Of a stretch of DNA of 31,142 bases, positions 1 to 17,337 are shown piece by piece (position 1 is the stretch's first letter; each line of letters begins with the position of its first letter). Both the position numbers and the translations under genes were made by a program. The stretch is from Spirogloea muscicola (Eukaryota; Streptophyta; Zygnematophyceae; Spirogloeales; Spirogloeaceae). The notes below the pieces were generated by a model, which saw nothing but the letters and a program-made list of their open reading frames with translations, was not told the origin of the DNA and made no database searches. The stretch lies in assembly GCA_009602725.1 (NCBI GenBank), contig WELB01000041.1, positions 511,305-542,446 on the forward strand, in the 5' to 3' direction.

Positions 1-34
<34 letters not shown>
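1..34. repeat. (CGC)n trinucleotide microsatellite at window edge
   Basis: The window opens inside a pure CGC/CCG repeat of about 11 units. It belongs to the GC-rich stretch upstream of the transporter gene, and its true length is cut by the window edge. Similar CCG/CGG tracts recur near most other gene 5' ends here. Confidence 0.95.
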
Positions 35-35
<1 letters not shown>

Positions 36-239
36 GTGTTGAAGGCTCCTGCCGTCGCGGCAGCCGTCGGATCAGGCCGGCCAGGCGGCGTCCGGTGCCC
101 GGCCGACGCAGTGCAGGGCGGCGACGCCCGGCGGAGATTCGGCGACGAAGGCGTTGGGCATTGCCAACCGGGACTGCTGTTCTGAGGCGTTGGATAGCGC
201 GGAGGCGGCGGGGAGGGCGGCGGGGTGCCGCCCGCCGCC
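35..239 (+). promoter_or_regulatory. GC-rich 5' flank/5' UTR of the cation-chloride cotransporter
   Basis: This GC-rich, CpG-dense stretch lies directly upstream of the transporter start codon. I see no TATA-like box at a sensible position. It ends in a GCCGCCGCC run immediately before the ATG, a strong initiation context. The role as promoter and 5' UTR is inferred from position only. Confidence 0.4.
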
Positions 240-3200
240 ATGGCCGACGACGGCGGCCCCCTCGTGCCGCCCGAGGAGACGAATGGCCGCGCCGACGGCG
301 AGCACGAGCATGTGGCGCTGGAGATGAGCACCGTGGATCTCTCGGAGGATGCGCCGAGCCCGAGCGGGGCGGACGGCGCTCACAGCGATGCGGGGAGCAG
401 GTTCGACCCCTGCCTCCCCCTCATTCGTGCCTCTGGGTCGCGCGTCTTGGCAGGACCAGCGTGCTCCAGGTCAGGGCGCCTTGACTCTTGCAAGCGCACC
501 TGACAGCTACCTCTTGGCAGCAGTCTGCAAGACAATGGCGAGTAGTCTTGCCAGATGCTGACCTACAGTTTCAACCTGCTCTGTCTCGTCGAGTGGATGT
601 TGCGTAAATCGAGTTCTGCTTTCTGGCCTGCATTGTCATGACGAAGGAGGACTGACAGTGTACAGCTCTGACAGCTGCATAGACTTAAGGGTGCGCTCAG
701 CTTAGACAGGTCGTCTTGGCTTTCGCCACAAGTATACCAAGTCCAAGTGCCTGACTGCAGACTAGGTGTGGATCCCCCTCTCATGGCAGGTCTAGCAAGC
801 AGAGGAGATTGAGCTCAGAAAGTGGCATCGAGGAATCCATCTTCGATCGCGCAGAGCGAGATTCGAAGATGGAGCTCTTTGAGTGCGACCCACTCGTTGA
901 TGTGATGGGCCTCAAGAGGTATTGAGCTTAGGTGCCAAGTTGTTGCAAGTTGCTCTAGCATAGGTGGATCTTGGACAAGCTCCTTCGTCCTGTGTCTTAC
1001 AAGCTTGTAATTGCTTCTCTGCATCTAGTAGAGTGCACTGGTGTGACTGAACCAGGCTAATCTCCTTTGCTCATATTGGAATCTTCATACCATGTTTCAG
1101 CATGGCTGGTCGAGGAACTGGAAGCTTCAGTCCTCGAGAAGGCATGGAGGACGTCCCTGTGACACTAGGAGGAGCAGCAAGAGTCAGTCATCATCTTCCC
1201 TTGTGGAAAGTTGTGTGCCCGTTTGACACACAGCTAGTGTCTAGAGCCTCTGTTCTCCCTGAGTGCCACTAAGCAGTCCAAAATACTAGTGACAAGCAAT
1301 ACATCTACTTGGAAGTGATTGTAGCTCCTTGTTCCACCATGGGCAGGAGAAAAAAACTCAGAAGCTGGGAACACTAATGGGAGTCTTCATACCATGCTTT
1401 CAAAACATTTTGGGCATCATTTACTACATCAGATTTTCATGGTGAGGCTCTCTCTTGTGCAAGGTGAAAGTTGCAGCCACCTTTCCTTGTTGTTTCTTTG
1501 ACCAGAAATCTAGATCAAGGACCAATCGTCCACTGGCATGGCTGGACTGAAAGTGAGTCCGGAGGTAAAGAGGTGACACCTATGTCTTCTGCATATTCAG
1601 GATTGTTGGCATTGCAGGAGTTGGACAAGCACTTCTCCTGGTCTTGCTGTGCTGTTGCTGCACTTTCCTAACAGGAATATCCCTCAGTGCTATTGCAACC
1701 AATGGCGCCATGAAGGTGAAGCACTACTACTGGTCCTCTTATTGAGGAGAAGGATAGGACAAGACACATTCTTTTTTTGGGGTCCAACAGGCCCTGTACA
1801 CCATGTGTTGCGTATGTTCAAGTCACCTCAAAGAATGTCTCCTCGATATCAGGGTGGAGGACCTTACTATCTCATTGGGAGAGCTCTAGGACCTGAAGTT
1901 GGTGTCAGCATAGGCCTGTGCTTCTTCCTGGGGAATGCTGTTGCGGCTGCTCTGTAAGCCTACTCTTTGAAGCAAAGCAATCAGCCTGCTTCAAAGGAAA
2001 GTAGTATTGCAAAGTATTGCAAACAGATTGTTGATTTCTGCAATATAGCAGCTCACTGATCTGGCCTAGTGAAGATCTGCACTCTTTCACAAGCTTGTTC
2101 CTGCCTTACCAGGTATGTGCTCGGAGCGGTGGAGACTGCACTAACTGCCCTCCCAGGGATGAGTCTCTTTGGACGTAAGCTTGTTGGGCGCCCTCCTTCT
2201 GCCTTCTTGCATGTTCTCAATATCAATTGTTGAAAAGTGAAGTTTTGCCCTCCAGGCCATATCAGGGCAAGAGAGTGACATTCTGTAGTCACTCTGCATT
2301 ACTCATGAACAAATCTTACCTCCTGTGCAGGGAATGTTGATTACATTGCTCAGGCGCCCTCCTCTGTACAGATGATGGCCCCATCTGGCGCGCCAGAGCT
2401 CTTTAAGGTTGTGAATCAACATGACATGCAGGTCTATGGAGTCATTGTCACAGTGATACTCTGCTTGGTGGTCTTTGGGGGAGTCAGGATACTCGCCAAA
2501 CTTGGACCACTTTTCCTGGTGCCAGTGCTGATCACAATAGTGCTCATCTTTGTTGGCATGTTCGACTCGCCAAGAGGCAGTCAACCAGGTAATTGTGGCG
2601 CTTAGTGCGAGTCCAATCTGTGGAAGCTCAGATGATTTTTGTTAATTTCAAAATGAGCAGTCGCTATTACTGCGTGGCCTTCTTGTCCATGTTGCAGGTA
2701 TGTCAGGGCGACTACATTGGTATTCACTGACAAAATACCTGCTTCATGCACTCATGCAGATGGTGTCACAGGCGTGAGGTGGAAGACTTTGAAAAGCAAC
2801 TGGGGCTCTGCCTATCAGAAGACCAACCATGCTGGCATACCTTCCCCAAATGGCAGCTTCTATTGGGGTTTCAAGTGAGCATACACTGCTCTTTGAGCTC
2901 ACTAGATACTGGTCATGTGACCAACTCCCACTGAAAGCGAGGCGCCATTGTCAAGATGTCTGATAGTAGTATTGTCAAAACACTGCAGTGCCTTGCTGGG
3001 CCTCTTCATCCCAGCTGTGACAGACATCATGGCTGGGTCGAATCGTTCCGCATCTCTTCGTGATACCCAGACATCTATTCCTGTGGGGACTTTGTCAGCA
3101 ATTGGTTGCACAACTGTGCTCTACGTCGTTTCAGTCTTCATCATTGGAGCTGTCGCTACACGTGAGGTTCTTCTGGTAGATCGGTGAGTATGACCTTCAT

Positions 3201-6200
3201 TGCTAAGAACCTGTTTCCCCCTTGTCACTTCTGCAGTGCGCTCATGGGCCTCTTCTTCCCTGCTGTCACGGGAATCATGGCTGGCTCAAATCGGTCTGCC
3301 TCGCTGCGAGATACTCAGAAGGCCATTCCAACTGGCACTCTTTCAGCAATTGGGGCCTCCACTGTCCTTTATGTCATTTCTACTTTTTTGATTGGGGCTG
3401 TTGCTGTCCGTGAGGTACTTCTGACAGACAGGTGACTAGCATGCATATTGGTCTTAGAAGTACCTGTCACGACAGTTCCTCGGCAGTATGACAGCCACCG
3501 CTTCTTATCAGGACTCGGGATTGCATCACTAATTAGATTCTTCACAGTGGTTGATCATATTGACCTCAGATTGCTGGCTGCTTGTGGGTTACATGGAGTA
3601 GGCTTGTGTCGCCTTGCCCAAAACGTCTTAAATCTTGGCTGACAATTGTTGCTTCCTCTGTAAATACCTGCAGGCTTCTACTTGCTACCCTTGCTTGGCC
3701 AGTTCCAGCTGTCGTTTACGTTGGCATCATCCTGTCAACCCTAGGTGCAGCATTGCAAAGCCTCACTGGTGCTCCTCGTCTACTTGCTGCAATTGCAAAT
3801 GATGACATTTTACCATTACTGAACTGGTGCAAGGTACTTCCAAGCCGGTCATGCCCATTGCGTCTCATAAATTCTTTGGCTTTGATGCTTCGTTGACAGA
3901 GGCCTTGTGTGACGCTTGTGACATACCTTGTGATCTTTTAGCCTCCTGTATAATTATATACGTCAGTGATCTCATGTTTTTGTTTGGGTGTCTGCAGGCT
4001 CCAGATGGCACGGAGCCAAACGTGGCTACACTTTTCACCATGCTCATCTGCTGTGGTTGTGTTGTAATTGGCAACCTGGACTACATCACTCCGGTCATCA
4101 CCATGTTTTTCCTACTCTGTTATTGCGGCGTTAATTTGTCCTGCTTTCTATTGGACCTCCTTGATGCTCCTAGCTGGCGCCCTCGCTGGAAATGGCACCA
4201 TTGGGCTGCTTCTCTTGCTGGTGCCATCCTATGTATCGGTGAGCCGATACTCTGTGAAGCCCTGAAATATTGTGATTTCACTACTCGTGTTGCTGACTTA
4301 TCAGCAGGCAGCTAATTGTGTGATTGCGTTGCATAATCTGCTCATTCTCTTTGACATCCTGCCAGTCCCTTCCTTGCTTTCACCCTTGGGTATCCTTGTG
4401 CATTTTTTATGTACACGAAGAGGCTGCAAGCTTTTGATGATATGTATCACCAGCTTTTCACATCCTCTAACCCAACCCTTGTATCTGCTCAAATGTTCCT
4501 GTTTGTAGTCATCATGTTCATGATTTCCTGGGGCTTCACCATTGTGGCATTGGCGCTTGCTGCTCTTATCTACTACTATGTTGGAAAGAAGGGGAAAGCG
4601 GGTGATTGGGGGGATGGTTTTAAGTCAGCTTATTTCCAACTGGCCCTGCGATCATTGAGATCTCTCGGAGGTGAAGCTGATTTCTTTGTGTACGAGGCAT
4701 AAGCAGTTGCTATTTGCATGTAGAGTTGTTGGGTTATTGTCATTCTAATATATTGTCTGTCTGTAATTTGTTGCACAGCCACTGCCGTGCACCCCAAGAA
4801 TTGGTACCCAATACCCCTCATTTTCTGCAAGCCTTGGGGCATCCTTCCCCAGGATGTGCCGTGCCACCCAAAGCTTGCTGACTTTGCAAACTGCATGAAG
4901 AAAAAGGGTCGTGGAATGAGCCTGTTTGTGAGCATCCTAGAAGGGCCTTACAAGTAAGCAATTGGCAGAATCTTCTCACCGCATCATCTTACCACTAGTT
5001 AGGACCTTTGTTGAGAGGTTCCGTTGTCTTCTTCCTGCCGTCTGGAGTTTGCTATGGATTTTAGATACATTGCCCTAGGGTCATATCATCCGCGTACCCG
5101 CATTCTCCCTGCCACGTGTGAGTAGCAATTGGTCTTTGTCATGGTGCTACTCACTCTGGCATGCTTTGGACTACTTGTATAGATGGACAAGCATTTGATT
5201 CTTATATGACACTCCTCATACTCTGTGCTGTGCAGGGACAAGGTGGAGGAAAGCCGTCATGCCAGCCGGCTTTTGGCAACTTACATCGACTATAAGAATT
5301 GCGAAGGGGTTGCTGAGGTGGTTGTTGCTCCTGACATGCGAGATGGCTTCAGGGCCATCGTCCAGTGCATGGGGTTAGCCAATCTCAAGCCCAATATTGT
5401 TTGCCTGAGGTACCCTGAGATATGGAGGAATGAAGGGGAGGGGCACAATAAGCACATCCCGGACACTTTTGTCTCCATCATAAATGACTGCTCGGTTGCT
5501 AACAAGGTAAGCTTGCAAAGCTGTGACAAGACCTGCAAGTCCTAAAAATTGTTTGCTCAGTCTCCTGAAGCACTGGTCTCATCTGAGCTGAGGTGGGTTG
5601 CTTGGCTGAGAATTGAAGCTGGCAATGCTGGTTGTATGACATACACCTAGCAGTCTCTGTCTTGTTGCTTTTTGTAACTTCTTAGCTGTCTCTGTTTGTG
5701 TTGTGTGTAACAATACTGCGTCCCTTGAGCTGTGCAGGCCTGTGTCATTGTCAAAGGGCTGGATGAGTGGCCTGGAGAATTTCAGAAGCAGTATGGCACG
5801 ATTGATCTATACTGGATAGTCAGAGACGGTGGCATCATGCTCCTCCTTTCCCAGCTTCTTAGAGCTAAGGAAAGTTTCGAGAGCTGCCGCATCCAGGTCT
5901 TCTGCATAGCAGATGAGGACTCAGAAGCAGAGGAATTCACAAGGTACACAAGCTCTAAGGGTCGATGCTTTAATGCCTTGAAAGCCTGGCCTGTGCTTCT
6001 CTCTGTCTGTCATCTACACTCTCACGATGAGCATGTAGATGTACTTCTTTATTGCTTCACTATCTCAATTCGTGGTCAAGTTGGCCTGTACTGGAAACAC
6101 CAGCTAGACGAGGATACCAAGGTTCCCTGATGTTTGTGAAGACTAGCTGACTTGTGATCAGCTTGAGAGTACCTACCCATGCCTGATGCCTAATCGAGGT

Positions 6201-6868
6201 TGCAAGGATTATGCTGCAGAGATGTACGGAAGTTTCTGTACGACCTGAGAATGCAAGCAGAGGTCATCGTGGTGACGATGAAGTCGTGGGAGGAGCACAA
6301 GGAGGACCAAGAAGCAGATCCAGCTCGTGCTGGAACTGTGGAGGCTTTCTCAAAGGTCCGCAGGTTCCAACCCCTCATGCAGAGGTCTTTATGCTCCGCA
6401 CTGTTGTCTGTTGGGGTCTGGAATGTGCAGCCGCATTGGTTGGCCCATCCTGACAATAGTATCTTGTGCTGATTTTCAAGAGGTTATCAAATCATTCTTC
6501 AAGAATATGTGGTGGTTGAGACTTGGAGGGACTTTTGATCAATATTAGGTTGCCACATGCAGGCACGGAAGCGAATCATGGCACATGTGGGCAACATGTC
6601 TGAGGGCAGTGCAAGCGGTGAGCAACTGGAGTACCGGTCCGTGTCTGAGGAGAAAGTGAACAAATTCATATACACGGCGATCAAGCTCAACTCAATCATC
6701 ATGCGGTATTCACGCGCGGCTGCGGTGGTGCTTGTTTCCCTCCCCCCTCCCCCACACCACCACCCGTCATACTGCTACATGGAATACATGGACCTCCTTG
6801 TGGAGGGCATTCCACGCTTGCTCATGGTCCGCGGCTACCGGCGGGACGTTGTTACTATCTTCACTTGA
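240..6868 (+). CDS. Cation-chloride cotransporter (SLC12/CCC family, KCC/plant CCC1-like), 18-exon transcript
   Basis: Membrane carrier for coupled K+ (or Na+/K+) and Cl- transport. Exons by hand: 240-400, 790-918, 1101-1182, 1347-1441, 1601-1715, 1853-1953, 2113-2174, 2331-2588, 2760-2874, then 2989-3183 or 3237-3431, 3674-3833, 3998-4238, 4509-4670, 4779-4953, 5236-5506, 5738-5943, 6220-6355, 6563-6868. All phases match and the spliced CDS is 2970 nt (989 aa), close to plant CCC1 length. Family signatures in order: [20 protein letters not shown] in the N-terminal tail; [17 protein letters not shown] (TM1); [15 protein letters not shown] (TM6); [88 protein letters not shown]; and the conserved end [13 protein letters not shown]. 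The ATG at 240 has the best initiation context; 225 is an in-frame alternative. The sequence alone cannot separate KCC from NKCC transport mode. The gene is complete and converges on NDOR1. Confidence 0.95.
2989..3183 (+). other. Alternative exon A of the transporter (TM6 region, Asp variant)
   Basis: This 195-nt exon lies between AG at 2987-2988 and GTGAGT at 3184. It adds 1 nt to the preceding phase and leaves 2 nt, exactly as exon B does, so it joins the upstream codon (AA+T, Asn) and the downstream codon (CG+G, Arg) correctly. It encodes [20 protein letters not shown] followed by a hydrophobic helix and ends REVLLVDR. It differs from exon B at 13 of 65 residues (about 80% identity) and at roughly 56 of 195 nucleotides, with many silent changes. 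The most striking difference is Asp where exon B has the family-typical Gly (PAVTD versus PAVTG). There are no stops or frameshifts. Confidence 0.88.
3237..3431 (+). other. Alternative exon B of the transporter (TM6 region, canonical variant)
   Basis: This exon is also 195 nt with the same phase at both ends, preceded by TTCTGCAG and followed by GTGACT. It encodes [20 protein letters not shown] and ends REVLLTDR, matching the cation-chloride cotransporter consensus better than exon A. The intron between A and B (3184-3236) is only 53 nt, while every other intron of the gene is 108 nt or longer. Including both exons would keep the frame but duplicate the TM6/TM7 segment, which the fold should not tolerate, so one exon per mRNA is expected. 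That is an inference without transcript data. Confidence 0.9.
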
Positions 6869-8042
6869 GCCCCAGCTGGGCTTGCAATCAACAGTTGGGT
6901 GCCATGTCCTCATTGCTTTCCTCATAATTTTGCTCATCCTTCCGTAAGTCCTGCACATGCATTGTGTAGCTACTCACTCGACCTTCTGAGTCATGGTTCG
7001 CTGGGACAGCCTGACTTCCTTGCGCCCTGCAAGATCTGCTAGACTCCTTCATGCTGTCTTTCACCTTTTGCCATTGCGTTTCTGTTCTCCTTGCCTCTTC
7101 GGCCGTCAACCTTGGCACTGCTGCAATGGTCCCCAGCAAAGCATTAAACTGACAATGCGAATCTATTGAGCTGTATCCACCATTCCATAGTGTTGCTCAA
7201 TCTGTGTATGCATCACTTGCCCACATACTGTTGGACTGGCTATGGTCTCCATGGACTACTAAATGGCCTCACATAGGCTACTCTTTTATCTGATCAACAC
7301 GTCCTCGTTCTAAGTGAGCATGCCGCAGCTAGAAGAGCTTGGATGAGGTATAAGGCCCTAACGTGGACCAATCTTGCAGTATGACTGCATGCTAGCATGC
7401 ACTCTTCACCACAATGTTGAACTGTAGAAGTTGATACTGTGTGACTTGCATCTATGCACTGCTAACAGATCCACATGAGTAGCCCATGTGCTACTCATTC
7501 TTTCAGTCAACACGTCCGCATTCTGAGTGTGCGTGCCGCTTCTTGAAAAGCTTGTACATATAAGACCCTGAACATTCACCCGTCTTACGATGTGAATGTG
7601 GTGGAGCATGCACTTCTCCACACACAATCACAGTGGCATGTTCCTAAATATGAGAGACCTTAGACAGTGGCTCCGCAACATGCACACCTCGTATGGTGAT
7701 GTCCATGACAAGACAGCCTCGCTGCTTTCCCATCATTTCATGCAATCTTAGGCCCCTCTCCTGGGATGCTTTGGTTTAGCCTCACCACTGTAGAAATGAA
7801 TAGAGTGTCTTGCACAGATGAGGCCTGCTTGCATGCAATTGCAACTGACTCAACGCCTTGCAAGGGATCAACAGCAATTATGAAAGACTCTCAATCAGAC
7901 ATAAAGTTGCAGCACACGATGCCCAAGCTACATGCAGCCTCTGACTGCTCGGAGCCAGGATGGCGGCAACGGCTAGTAATGGCATGTACTCAATGTGATA
8001 TCATGTTATACCATCACCCAAAGGCGGTGCTGAACGATAGCT
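6869..8042. other. Convergent intergenic region between transporter and NDOR1
   Basis: This contains the 3' UTRs of two convergent genes. Open frames are short and match nothing I recognise. It holds a diverged direct repeat (annotated separately) and a 16-bp perfect palindrome at 7386-7401 (TGCATGCTAGCATGCA). No clear polyadenylation signal could be assigned on either strand. Confidence 0.6.
7279..7625. repeat. Two diverged direct repeat copies in intergenic DNA
   Basis: A block near 7279-7415 is echoed near 7490-7625. Both have CTACTC, then TCAACACGTCC, then a CTAAGTGAGC/CTGAGTGTGC element, then TGCCGC, an AGCTT, ATAAG(G)CCCT, and finally GCATGCAC followed by TTC. The copies differ by many substitutions and small indels, so this is an old tandem duplication of about 135 bp. 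No transposon ends were seen. Confidence 0.6.
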
Positions 8043-13092
<5,050 letters not shown>

Positions 13093-13930: not shown

Positions 13931-16900
13931 TCACAAGCTGTCAAAGAAGTTGGCCATGGCCCTGACCAGCTTTCGCATGTCGGCGAGCGCGGCCGAGCGG
14001 AGCCCCTGCGCAACGGCATCCAGCGGCGAGAAGGCGCTGCCAACTTCCCACTTGAAGTCCTGGATGTCATCAGGGGGAGGTGTGAGGCTTTGTTAACAGT
14101 TTGTCACAACGTAGCACCAGATCTTGCTAGACGCTGCACTTACAATCTGCCAATGGGCGAGTGGACTTGATTGATTGGGTAGATAGAGACGCACGGGCGC
14201 GAGCGGCGTTGCATGCGTGCCAGGCAGCTCCAGCTTGACCAAGGTGCCGCCGCACGCGGCGGCCCTCGGCCGCAGCAGGCTCTCCAGGATGTCTGTCTCG
14301 TCAATCGTGTCAATCTCAAATTTCACCTGCTCAGACATTGTGCAATTAGCCCGACAAATTATCGACTGGACTGTCTAGGGATTCACATGCGAATACGCCC
14401 AATGCTTGCCCATCCAAACCCTCCTTAGACTTCCGAAGTGCAAAGCTGTAGCGCATCAAAAGCAGTTGTCAAGCCTGCACCACAAGCTTTCCTGACCCTG
14501 AACTGCAACTGCACTCACACTCCAAGAACCGTACACAATGTAGTCAGCACAGGGCACGCGAGTCATGAGGTATACCAGCAGGTTGTGTGGCACAGCGTAG
14601 TGGTTGGCTATGGACACCCGGTTTTCTGATGGGCTGGGGGCAAACTCCACCACTCCATCTCGCACCTGCAACAGATGAAGCTCCTCACCTCATTATTCTA
14701 ATATATCTTCAAAGACTCAAGAGTGCTGGATGGTACCAGTCAAGGGTGAGAGGAGGCCAGTGTTCGTAACAGCAGACTTACAATTTTGTCAACAACTATC
14801 TTCTATGCAGCACATATGCCACACGGGTAGGCCTCTAACGGCACAGGGTAACCCATACCTGACCAAAGACTGGCCCAATCTGGTTGAGGAACCTTAGGAC
14901 TGGGTCAAGATCAACGGGGCCACTCTCTGCCAGCCTCACCGCTTCATCTGCCCGGCACAGAGCAGTTGAAATTACATGAGATGGGCCCGAGGCGTATGGG
15001 TGTGGCTGACAGCGTCGCCCTTCTGCCAGCTCCAGTGCAGGCCAATTTGAGTAATAGCAAAAAAGATAACAGCGCTAACAGGACCTGTAGGACAAGCAAA
15101 GGTATGGATTATAGGAAGACGGTGCAAAGTAGAAATCACTACGAATTTGCTTGAACACGTTGCATCAGCAAGTATGCACAATATAGTCTGCAAAAAGTGC
15201 TATCAAGACGCAAATACAACAACTCTTGAATATAGCTTTTGCAGCAACACACCCACGAGGCTGAGCGCCAGGCCCGTCAGTGGGGAGCTCTCAATGGCTG
15301 GTGCGAGTTGCTTCAAGCCTGGTCCAAGCTGCAGGCACATGATCGCAAGTTCCATGTCATACAGCTGACAGTGCTTTATCCTCTTAGTGCTCATTCAAAC
15401 CCTACTTGGAGTGCCAATTCGCCCACAGTTCTGTAGTTATCGAATACATAGAAGGTTATTGTGACCAACTCTAAGGCATACTGTGACCAGCTCTGGTATA
15501 TCTTGCTAGTGACCACTTATCCTTCTACATGTGACGAGTGCACACGCTGATTAGGTCATCCACGTCCGAGCAAGTCCACTCTCTGCTTGACACATTGTCA
15601 TGCTTCTCACTCAACTCATGTATTGGCAGGACACATGCATTGCTCTTTTGCAACATGAGTATACTGTCCAGCATGCACAAGTACCAGACCTGCTCAAAGA
15701 AAGGCACAGCGCCAGTCGCGCCCTTGTTATTGAAGGAAAGAATTGCATTTGCCTAATAAGAAGCACCAAGAGTTTGATTGGTCAAGCATGAACCCTGACA
15801 ACTGGACTACATCAAGTGAGACGTACATGTACACTTGCTAAACTCCAGGTACTGACTGATGGGTCGAAAACATCAGTCACAGTAGTCCCAATGAATCCAA
15901 TGCCAGGGAATTTCAGCTCTGTAGTTTAGAGTTGCACATATATAAGTTTGCCTGTACTTGCACGTACAATGCGAGACTCCTCCGCCACAGGACAACAAAA
16001 GAACACCTTACGTGGGAGTACGAACCTGGGGGAGGGTCCGGTCGGTGCACAGGCTGCCAATCAGCACCTGCATGAGGGCGCCGTTGCTGCAGCCACCCAT
16101 CATTGTGTAGCATAAGCCCAGGGAGAAGGTTGGCAAGCGGACACGAGCCTCAGCACTGGCCTCCATGGCGGCAGTGCCCGCAGACCAAGTGACACACGAC
16201 TTGAGCAAGCAAGCGTGCTTGGCCATAGCTGATGAATGCTGTGCTAGATTGAGGCTAGCCCAAACGTACTTCCTCCAGAAAATTAATCAAGGGCGCTCAT
16301 GATGTTGCCTCAACCCCAGAACAAGGGCTCTTACTGATGAGGTTGAGGGACTGTGGAACATTGGGGCCAACCTGTGGCCGACGCTGTAGATGGGGAAGCC
16401 CTGGACGGCAGCCGCAGAGATGCCAGCGTCTGGGAGGCCGGAGGCCCGGAGGAGGTCGAGGGCGTCATTGAACTTGTCGTGGATGCGGCGGGACGACGCG
16501 GCGTGGTCGAACGTGACCTCGTACGGCGTCGCCACGACGAGGTAGCCCTCCTTCACCAGCAGCTCGATCAGCAAGCTGCGGCGGCGCTGCCGGTGGCCCC
16601 ATGCCGCTCAGCGCATGCAGCCAATCAAAGCCCACCATGTTTCCGATGCTAGATGCTGTGTGAAGTGCAGATAGAGAAGGTTGCAATGCAATCCAAGTCG
16701 TTGCTGGTCATATCTACAAACATGAAGACATTCCTCTACTTCACACAGGTACAGCAACCCATGTACGAGATGCAGGAGTGGCGAAGAGGAGATAGAAATA
16801 TGCAACCAATGAATAATTCTGCACAGAGGTGGCTTTTTCTGCTAACCACAAAGACACAGGTTCCTTCGATCTAAGTTTTGGTGCTATTGCGGGGGTTATT

Positions 16901-17337
16901 GTACATGCATTTCTGTAGTGTTTGCGTGAAGTGAGCACAACCTGGAACTCGCCTCGCCACCCAGGTGCTAGAGACAGCGGCGGAGCGCACCAATGCTAAA
17001 CCCTGGACCTCGAGATCGGGAGACTAAACCCTAGCACTAGTGTCAAGCTTCTTGACACTAGTGCTAGGCTCAGCGTCTCGGAGCTCGGAGCTCAGCGTCT
17101 GAGTGGAGCCATGAACCCCAAGCCCTGGACAGCGGCGCGGCGCACCTGTAGGTGACGTCGGGGCTGGCGCCAATGAAGGCGCCGCCGAGGAAGTTGAGGA
17201 GCGCCCGCGGCGGGCCCCGCGGCGCGTACACCTGGCACTGCCCGACGCGGCGGAAGGCCGGGTACGACCCCAGCCACGCAGCCGACTGTGGCGCCGCGGC
17301 GGCGGCGGCGGCGGCGGCGGCGGATCTGGCTCCGCCN
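13931..17337 (-). CDS. DUF1350 family protein (alpha/beta-hydrolase-like)
   Basis: DUF1350 proteins are conserved in cyanobacteria, algae and plants, probably plastid-located; biochemical function is unproven. Exons on the minus strand: ~17337-17146, 16575-16372, 16086-16026, 15752-15690, 15328-15253, 14947-14859, 14665-14576, 14326-14144, 14059-13931, with matching phases. Visible signatures: LLNFLGGAFIGASPDVTY, LLVKEGYLVVATPYEVTFDH, the nucleophile elbow VGHSNGALMQVLIGSL (G-x-S-x-G, Ser formed across the 16372/16086 splice), ANAILSFNNKGATGAVPFFE, VRDGVVEFAPSPSENR, and KFEIDTIDETDILE near the end. A stop at 13931-13933 ends the protein in FFDSL. The start is uncertain: an N at 17337 sits in what would read CCATGGC on the minus strand if it were A on the plus strand, but that ATG is out of frame with the rest. 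A missing short exon between 15753 and 16025 cannot be excluded. Confidence 0.88.
17030..17068. repeat. Perfect 18-bp inverted repeat with 3-nt loop in DUF1350 intron 1
   Basis: The arm 17030-17047 (CCTAGCACTAGTGTCAAG) is exactly complementary to 17051-17068, with CTT between. It directly abuts a telomere-like CTAAACCCTAG motif (17024-17034); a second CTAAACCC lies at 16996. The hairpin would form in both RNA and DNA. No transposon ends or target-site duplication were identified. Confidence 0.85.
17294..17322. repeat. GGC microsatellite in the DUF1350 first exon
   Basis: A run of GGC/GCG units encodes poly-Ala in the DUF1350 frame on the minus strand, just upstream of SAAWLGSYPAFRRVG. It ends close to the ambiguous base at 17337. 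Together these make the start of that gene unreliable. Confidence 0.8.

Follow-up and report, generated by a model that had tools for sequence, protein, structure and literature searches.

The window analysed here is a stretch of 31,142 nucleotides from the genome of Spirogloea muscicola (GCA_009602725.1, contig WELB01000041.1, positions 511,305 to 542,446 of the forward strand), of which positions 1-9000 were read. Within its first 7 kb lies a transporter gene of the SLC12 family in which two adjacent exons, here called A and B, encode homologous versions of the same membrane segment. The coding exons of this gene run from ATG to stop at 240-6868 on the plus strand, as do all features described below, in an exon model built on GT-AG junctions, and the product is 997 amino acids long when exon B is used. 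The B-form protein matches the Pfam domains PF00324 (AA_permease, 162.7 bits) and PF03522 (SLC12, 127.2 bits), and its membrane part is closer to animal KCCs than to NKCCs, the best-scoring chains reaching 367 and 221 bits, respectively. These matches uphold the assignment to the cation-chloride cotransporters made in an earlier sequence-only reading of this DNA, and narrow it. To judge from its sequence, the gene is a KCC-type SLC12 gene, and electroneutral K-Cl cotransport is the predicted activity of its product. The attribution to a green alga in the same reading is also supported, as the Rubisco small-subunit genes of this genome are split by an intron and lie on large contigs.

Structure of the tandem exon pair

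Both exons, A at 2989-3183 and B at 3237-3431, have a length of 195 nt, and an intron of 53 nt (3184-3236) separates them. They lie between two constitutive exons placed by splice sites and frame, the upstream one (2760-2874) encoding the end of the large extracellular loop and the downstream one (3674-3833) the region of the eighth transmembrane segment (TM8). The two exons are thus adjacent, homologous, and equal in length and phase, with intact splice sites on both sides: both acceptors read gcag, and the donors read gtgagt (A) and gtgact (B). Whichever exon is joined to the flanks, the junction codons are alike, Asn on the left (AA-T) and Arg on the right (CG-G or AG-G). A and B are 71.3% identical in nucleotide sequence and share 52 of 65 residues (80%). 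By codon position, 58/65, 51/65 and, at third positions, 30/65 sites match, and such an excess of third-position differences is expected for an old pair under purifying selection. A repeat search independently recovered the pair as a direct repeat of 208 nt (2983-3190 and 3231-3438, 73% identical), far above chance. The encoded segment aligns to about residues 420-485 of KCC1, which we take to be the transmembrane segments TM6 and TM7. Two 195-nt exons in the same phase, good splice sites, Asn and Arg junctions, about 80% protein and about 70% DNA identity, and a placement running from TM6 into TM7 had all been claimed in the sequence-only reading, and all were reproduced.

Three genomic copies and the age of the pair

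We traced the block through the genome (153 Mb in 471 contigs) using window positions 1-9000 and 15000-17000 as queries, and found it in three syntenic copies, on contigs C41 (the window), C5 and C60, whose main aligned stretches are 82-93% identical. In the same genome, no contig other than these three yielded the SLC12 C-terminal domain. The exon model is open in the window and in C5, and over the part present in C60, which is readable from exon 9 onward, what precedes it lying in or beyond a run of N. Several other gene families often occur in threes as well, the exceptions being some CCT and tRNA-synthetase genes with two copies and the Rubisco small subunit with four, which suggests a triplicated or three-haplotype genome. 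C5 also repeats the first 2.8 kb of the gene in tandem: a second, partial copy lies upstream of the full one and matches window positions 13-2795 at about 89% identity.

In all three copies exons A and B are open, and the length of the intron between them is exactly 53 nt. Since three contigs of differing sequence all hold the pair, a duplication introduced by the assembly is ruled out. Fifty-three of the 195 sites separate every A from every B, whereas divergence within an exon among the copies amounts to only 0-2 sites for A and 1-5 sites for B. Between A and B, synonymous divergence (dS) is 1.17-1.25 and nonsynonymous divergence (dN) is 0.16-0.18; their ratio, which the sequence-only reading had named as a check, is about 0.14. 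For the rest of the coding sequence, dS between copies is 0.08-0.16. The 53 shared differences and an A/B dS of about 1.2 against these values put the exon duplication at several times the age of the triplication, in line with the old and intact duplication that had been proposed. Exon A shows no replacement and two silent differences between the window and either other copy, and no replacement difference among the three. A pseudo-exon A was considered and is unlikely, given its open frame, intact splice sites and lack of replacement change.

Silent change is also low in the pair. Between the window and C5, 4/111 silent sites differ in A and B combined as against 90/618 elsewhere in the gene (Fisher one-sided P 0.0004), and between the window and C60 the counts are 2/111 and 53/405 (P 0.0001), i.e., about a quarter and a seventh of the change in the rest of the gene, respectively. 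The 53-nt intron is likewise 52/53 identical between the window and C5 and between the window and C60, compared with 84% pooled over the other introns (binomial P about 0.001). Low divergence at silent and intron sites suggests that not only the protein but also the RNA is constrained. C5 and C60 are moreover identical to each other over exon 9 (101/101), the next intron (112/112) and exon A (195/195), but not in other parts, which suggests that window positions 2875-3183 underwent conversion or share a recent ancestry.

The intron between the two exons

The 53-nt intron is about half as long as the next smallest intron in the gene, as the sequence-only reading had stated: among the 18 other introns of the model, the smallest in the window measures 108 nt. 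For a wider comparison, intron lengths were estimated from profile coordinates in other genes, using 75/104 rows for CCT and 27/50 rows for the tRNA synthetases; rows that had in-frame stops or lacked a neighbour were mostly set aside. The shortest estimate was 93 nt over 40 junctions in the CCT genes and 133 nt over 14 junctions in the tRNA-synthetase genes. Because none of these 54 introns is estimated below 93 nt, joining of A to B is probably disfavoured on steric grounds.

The placement of branch-like sites agrees with this. Consensus scoring of the 53-nt intron gave four candidates, with their adenosines at +10 (ATGAC), +16 (TTCAT), +23 (CTAAG) and +44 (GTCAC) from the donor of exon A. 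The CTAAG candidate (3203-3207, simple consensus score only) lies within the GCTAAGA that the sequence-only reading had named as the sole branch-like site; this candidate is present, but the other three score as well. TTCAT is altered in C60, and GTCAC lies 9 nt from the acceptor end. As far as branch sites can be guessed from the consensus, none of the four is well placed. In human splicing, about 50 nt are reported to be needed between donor and branch point (PMC6692369), and in OGDH, branch points situated 25-41 nt from the donor are described as keeping exons 4a and 4b exclusive (PMC7969005). At the level of sequence, the earlier claim of a close branch spacing finds support, the candidate spacing being short relative to the human limit and the intron short relative to others in this genome. 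A steric block of the OGDH kind is the likely reason why A and B would not be joined.

The start of this intron also resembles the start of the intron after exon B (3432-3470). The duplicated unit may therefore have included some of the downstream intron, and the duplication may have left a new short intron without a normal branch site.

A residue difference at a chloride-binding position

Three of the 13 residue differences between A and B fall in or beside the stretch of TM6 that holds ion ligands. In KCC1 numbering, taken from the alignment range of 6kkr, the residues of B and A are Met/Leu at 424, Phe/Ile at 428 and Gly/Asp at 433. The B form has all five TM6 ligands (Pro429, Thr432, Gly433, Ile434 and Met435), and the A form has four (Pro429, Thr432, Ile434 and Met435), with Gly433 replaced by Asp. 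The Asp is found in exon A of all three copies. In contrast, position 433 is Gly in the six KCC chains whose alignments were inspected among 32 matched sequences, and the backbone of Gly433 is reported to contact chloride in KCC4 (PMC7200160). The Gly/Asp difference was absent from the sequence-only reading, and it gives the choice of exon a concrete possible meaning: in isoform A, either normal chloride coupling would be lost, or the acid would substitute for chloride. Apart from this, A and B are about equally near to animal KCCs, with 33 and 33 of 56 positions identical to KCC1, 31 and 33 to KCC2, and 30 and 31 to KCC3 (A and B, respectively), which argues that A is not a decayed copy.

Bacterial relatives extend the comparison. 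In one bacterial phylum, matches came from 49 of 194 genomes and were strong (E below 1e-15) in 21 and weak in 28, and at least four bacterial loci matched among general genome contigs; viral contigs were scanned for relatives and none was confirmed. We examined 33 bacterial loci, with 28 tblastn matches (24 strong and four weak). Four of the strong loci (L044-L047) are the same places as the four loci on general contigs, and the two sets therefore overlap. Among the 24 strong loci, position 433 lies outside the alignment in one and is Gly in all of the 23 close relatives in which it is aligned. The four weak loci, which are probably other permeases, have Gly, Gly, Ala and Ala.

A candidate microexon

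Inside the intron after exon 12, we observed an in-frame candidate microexon of 24 nt (4366-4389, eight residues). A block of 47 nt around it (4356-4402) is identical at 47/47 sites in both comparisons among the three copies, with flanks at 75-81%. In alignments to KCC chains, its residues have no counterpart in animal KCCs. Because the frame of the gene is kept with or without it and animal KCCs have no counterpart, the microexon may be optional.

Discussion

We suggest that the exon for TM6-TM7 was duplicated in tandem in this KCC-type gene and that the two versions became a mutually exclusive pair. Isoform A would be made by joining 2874 to 2989 and 3183 to 3674, and isoform B by joining 2874 to 3237 and 3431 to 3674. 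Joining of 3183 to 3237 would be disfavoured, as the donor is only 10-23 nt away from three of the branch-like adenosines, and the acceptor end 9 nt away from the fourth. Both isoforms would retain the TM6 potassium ligands Pro429 and Thr432. With the normal backbone contact of Gly433 for the second chloride site, B would be an ordinary K-Cl cotransporter, and A, with Asp433, would be a carrier with a weakened, altered or bypassed chloride site. The pair itself, its shared phase and relative age, its upkeep and conservation in three copies, the length of its intron and the Gly/Asp difference are direct observations, and from them we infer exclusive use in RNA, a steric cause and a consequence for transport. 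On the whole, it seems to us quite probable, with a fair amount of room for doubt, that the exons are used one or the other to make two KCC isoforms whose chloride sites differ, and that joining of A to B is sterically disfavoured.

Several points weigh against this proposal. First, the genome may contain introns near 84 nt, as two CCT rows excluded from the comparison (C267:150350-150676 and C63:50878-51177) extend about 84 nt beyond the profile length, and some eukaryotes splice far shorter introns. Second, 195 is a multiple of 3, and inclusion of both exons, or of neither, would keep the frame; this also rules out a frameshift on double inclusion as the means by which exclusivity is enforced. 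Third, the conservation of the pair is imperfect and may have more than one source. Exon B has three variable replacement sites among the copies, stretches of 53 nt as conserved as the short intron occur elsewhere in the introns between the window and C60 (3/1340; 0/2226 between the window and C5), and some of the low divergence may be due to conversion between copies. Finally, the Asp might simply inactivate isoform A.

This last point leads to the most serious alternative, namely that isoform A transports nothing by itself and, as a dominant-negative or regulatory partner in dimers, reduces KCC activity. KCCs are dimers. Moreover, even a change of Gly433 to Ala is reported to be harmful: KCC4 carrying it retains 78% of wild-type activity (mock 38%), and a KCC2-based chimera with the corresponding change is inactive (PMC11994965). 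However, A retains the other TM6 ligands, is as near to animal KCCs as B, and has accepted no replacement change among the copies. We regard a dominant-negative role as possible and on the whole unlikely. It would be tempting to go to the other extreme and suppose that exon choice lets a single gene produce both a chloride-coupled K+ carrier (B) and a K+ carrier whose second chloride is replaced by Asp (A). This idea is speculative, and we would not place much weight on it.

Another possibility is that the exons are indeed used one or the other, and that what enforces the choice is not the short intron but RNA structure or splicing factors acting at the donors. The donor of exon B lies in a predicted hairpin (3413-3465, arms 3413-3422 and 3456-3465) whose z is lower, in each copy, than that of any other donor tested (-3.74, -1.67 and -2.10 among 19, 19 and 11 donors). 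A weaker, similarly placed stem is predicted around the donor of A (3165-3212, arms 3165-3172 and 3205-3212), differing from the B stem by one two-sided change (T-A / A-T), and silent sites in A and B vary less than those in the rest of the gene, as might be expected of regulatory sequence. Nevertheless, the A-donor stem is no more stable than shuffled sequences, and the whole region folds no better than shuffles. In both C5 and C60 a pair in the B stem is disrupted, and at 0.41-0.49 the B donor has an unremarkable predicted accessibility. The B-donor hairpin is therefore only a lead, as is the stem at A, and enforcement of this kind appears improbable.

Inclusion of both exons together, resulting in a protein with two extra transmembrane helices, is very unlikely. 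Both lengths keep the frame, and TM6-TM7 adds an even number of helices, so the topology could survive, yet the 53-nt intron with its poorly placed branch-like sites would have to be spliced, and the ion-binding helix of a conserved fold would be duplicated. It is scarcely credible that exon A is a relic without use whose similarity between copies is due to gene conversion, because the identity of C5 and C60 across exon A and the preceding intron, which would favor it, has to be set against an A/B dS of about 1.2 with dN/dS about 0.14, an open frame, intact splice sites, and 14/112 differences between the window and C5 or C60 in the preceding intron compared with only two, both silent, in exon A.

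If the either-or pair with different chloride sites is real, it may have significance beyond this gene. KCCs are reported to move K+ and Cl- one to one although their structures show two chloride sites, which leaves the role of the second site open (PMC11994965). A natural pair of isoforms that differ at this site, both under selection, would make its role directly testable. Should A be a carrier in which the Asp takes the place of chloride, splicing would switch chloride dependence or ion stoichiometry, a switch that SLC6 shows only between genes. The pair would also be a second case in which exon choice tunes an SLC12 carrier, now at the ion-binding helix itself, and for green algae it would offer an example of exclusive splicing from which a clear functional prediction follows. 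In the open-licence literature that we searched on mutually exclusive exons, cation-chloride cotransporters, KCCs and green algae, no description of such a pair was found, consistent with the sequence-only reading, which knew of none in algae.

A close known parallel is exon 4 of mammalian NKCC2 (SLC12A1), where an SLC12 gene also has alternative versions of an exon for one membrane segment, and where the isoforms are said, in a paper citing others, to differ in ion affinity (PMC6873903). The variable exon of NKCC2, however, lies at the second transmembrane segment of an NKCC, whereas the pair described here encodes TM6-TM7 of a KCC, a difference in place that the sequence-only reading had noted and that the alignment to KCC1 corroborates; and here the swap alters a residue of the chloride site directly. 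Among green algae, exons 4 and 5 of cyn23 in Volvox carteri are likewise adjacent and of equal length (106 nt each), with 13 protein differences, and their exclusive use is reported from reverse-transcription PCR (PMC4378016), whereas for the present pair it is predicted. That gene encodes a cyclophilin, with no ion-site change. In having branch points too near the donor of the intron between the exons, the pair would resemble OGDH 4a/4b and alpha-tropomyosin (PMC7969005, PMC6692369), in which the branch points were mapped rather than guessed from the consensus. Finally, an acidic residue where relatives need chloride is described for Glu290 of LeuT and an Asp of TnaT in SLC6 (preprint PMC12139788). 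This is another family and another site, and the difference there is between genes, while here it would possibly be between exons of one gene. The gene family and the exon arrangement thus look to be of known kinds, and the place and the content of the swap look new.

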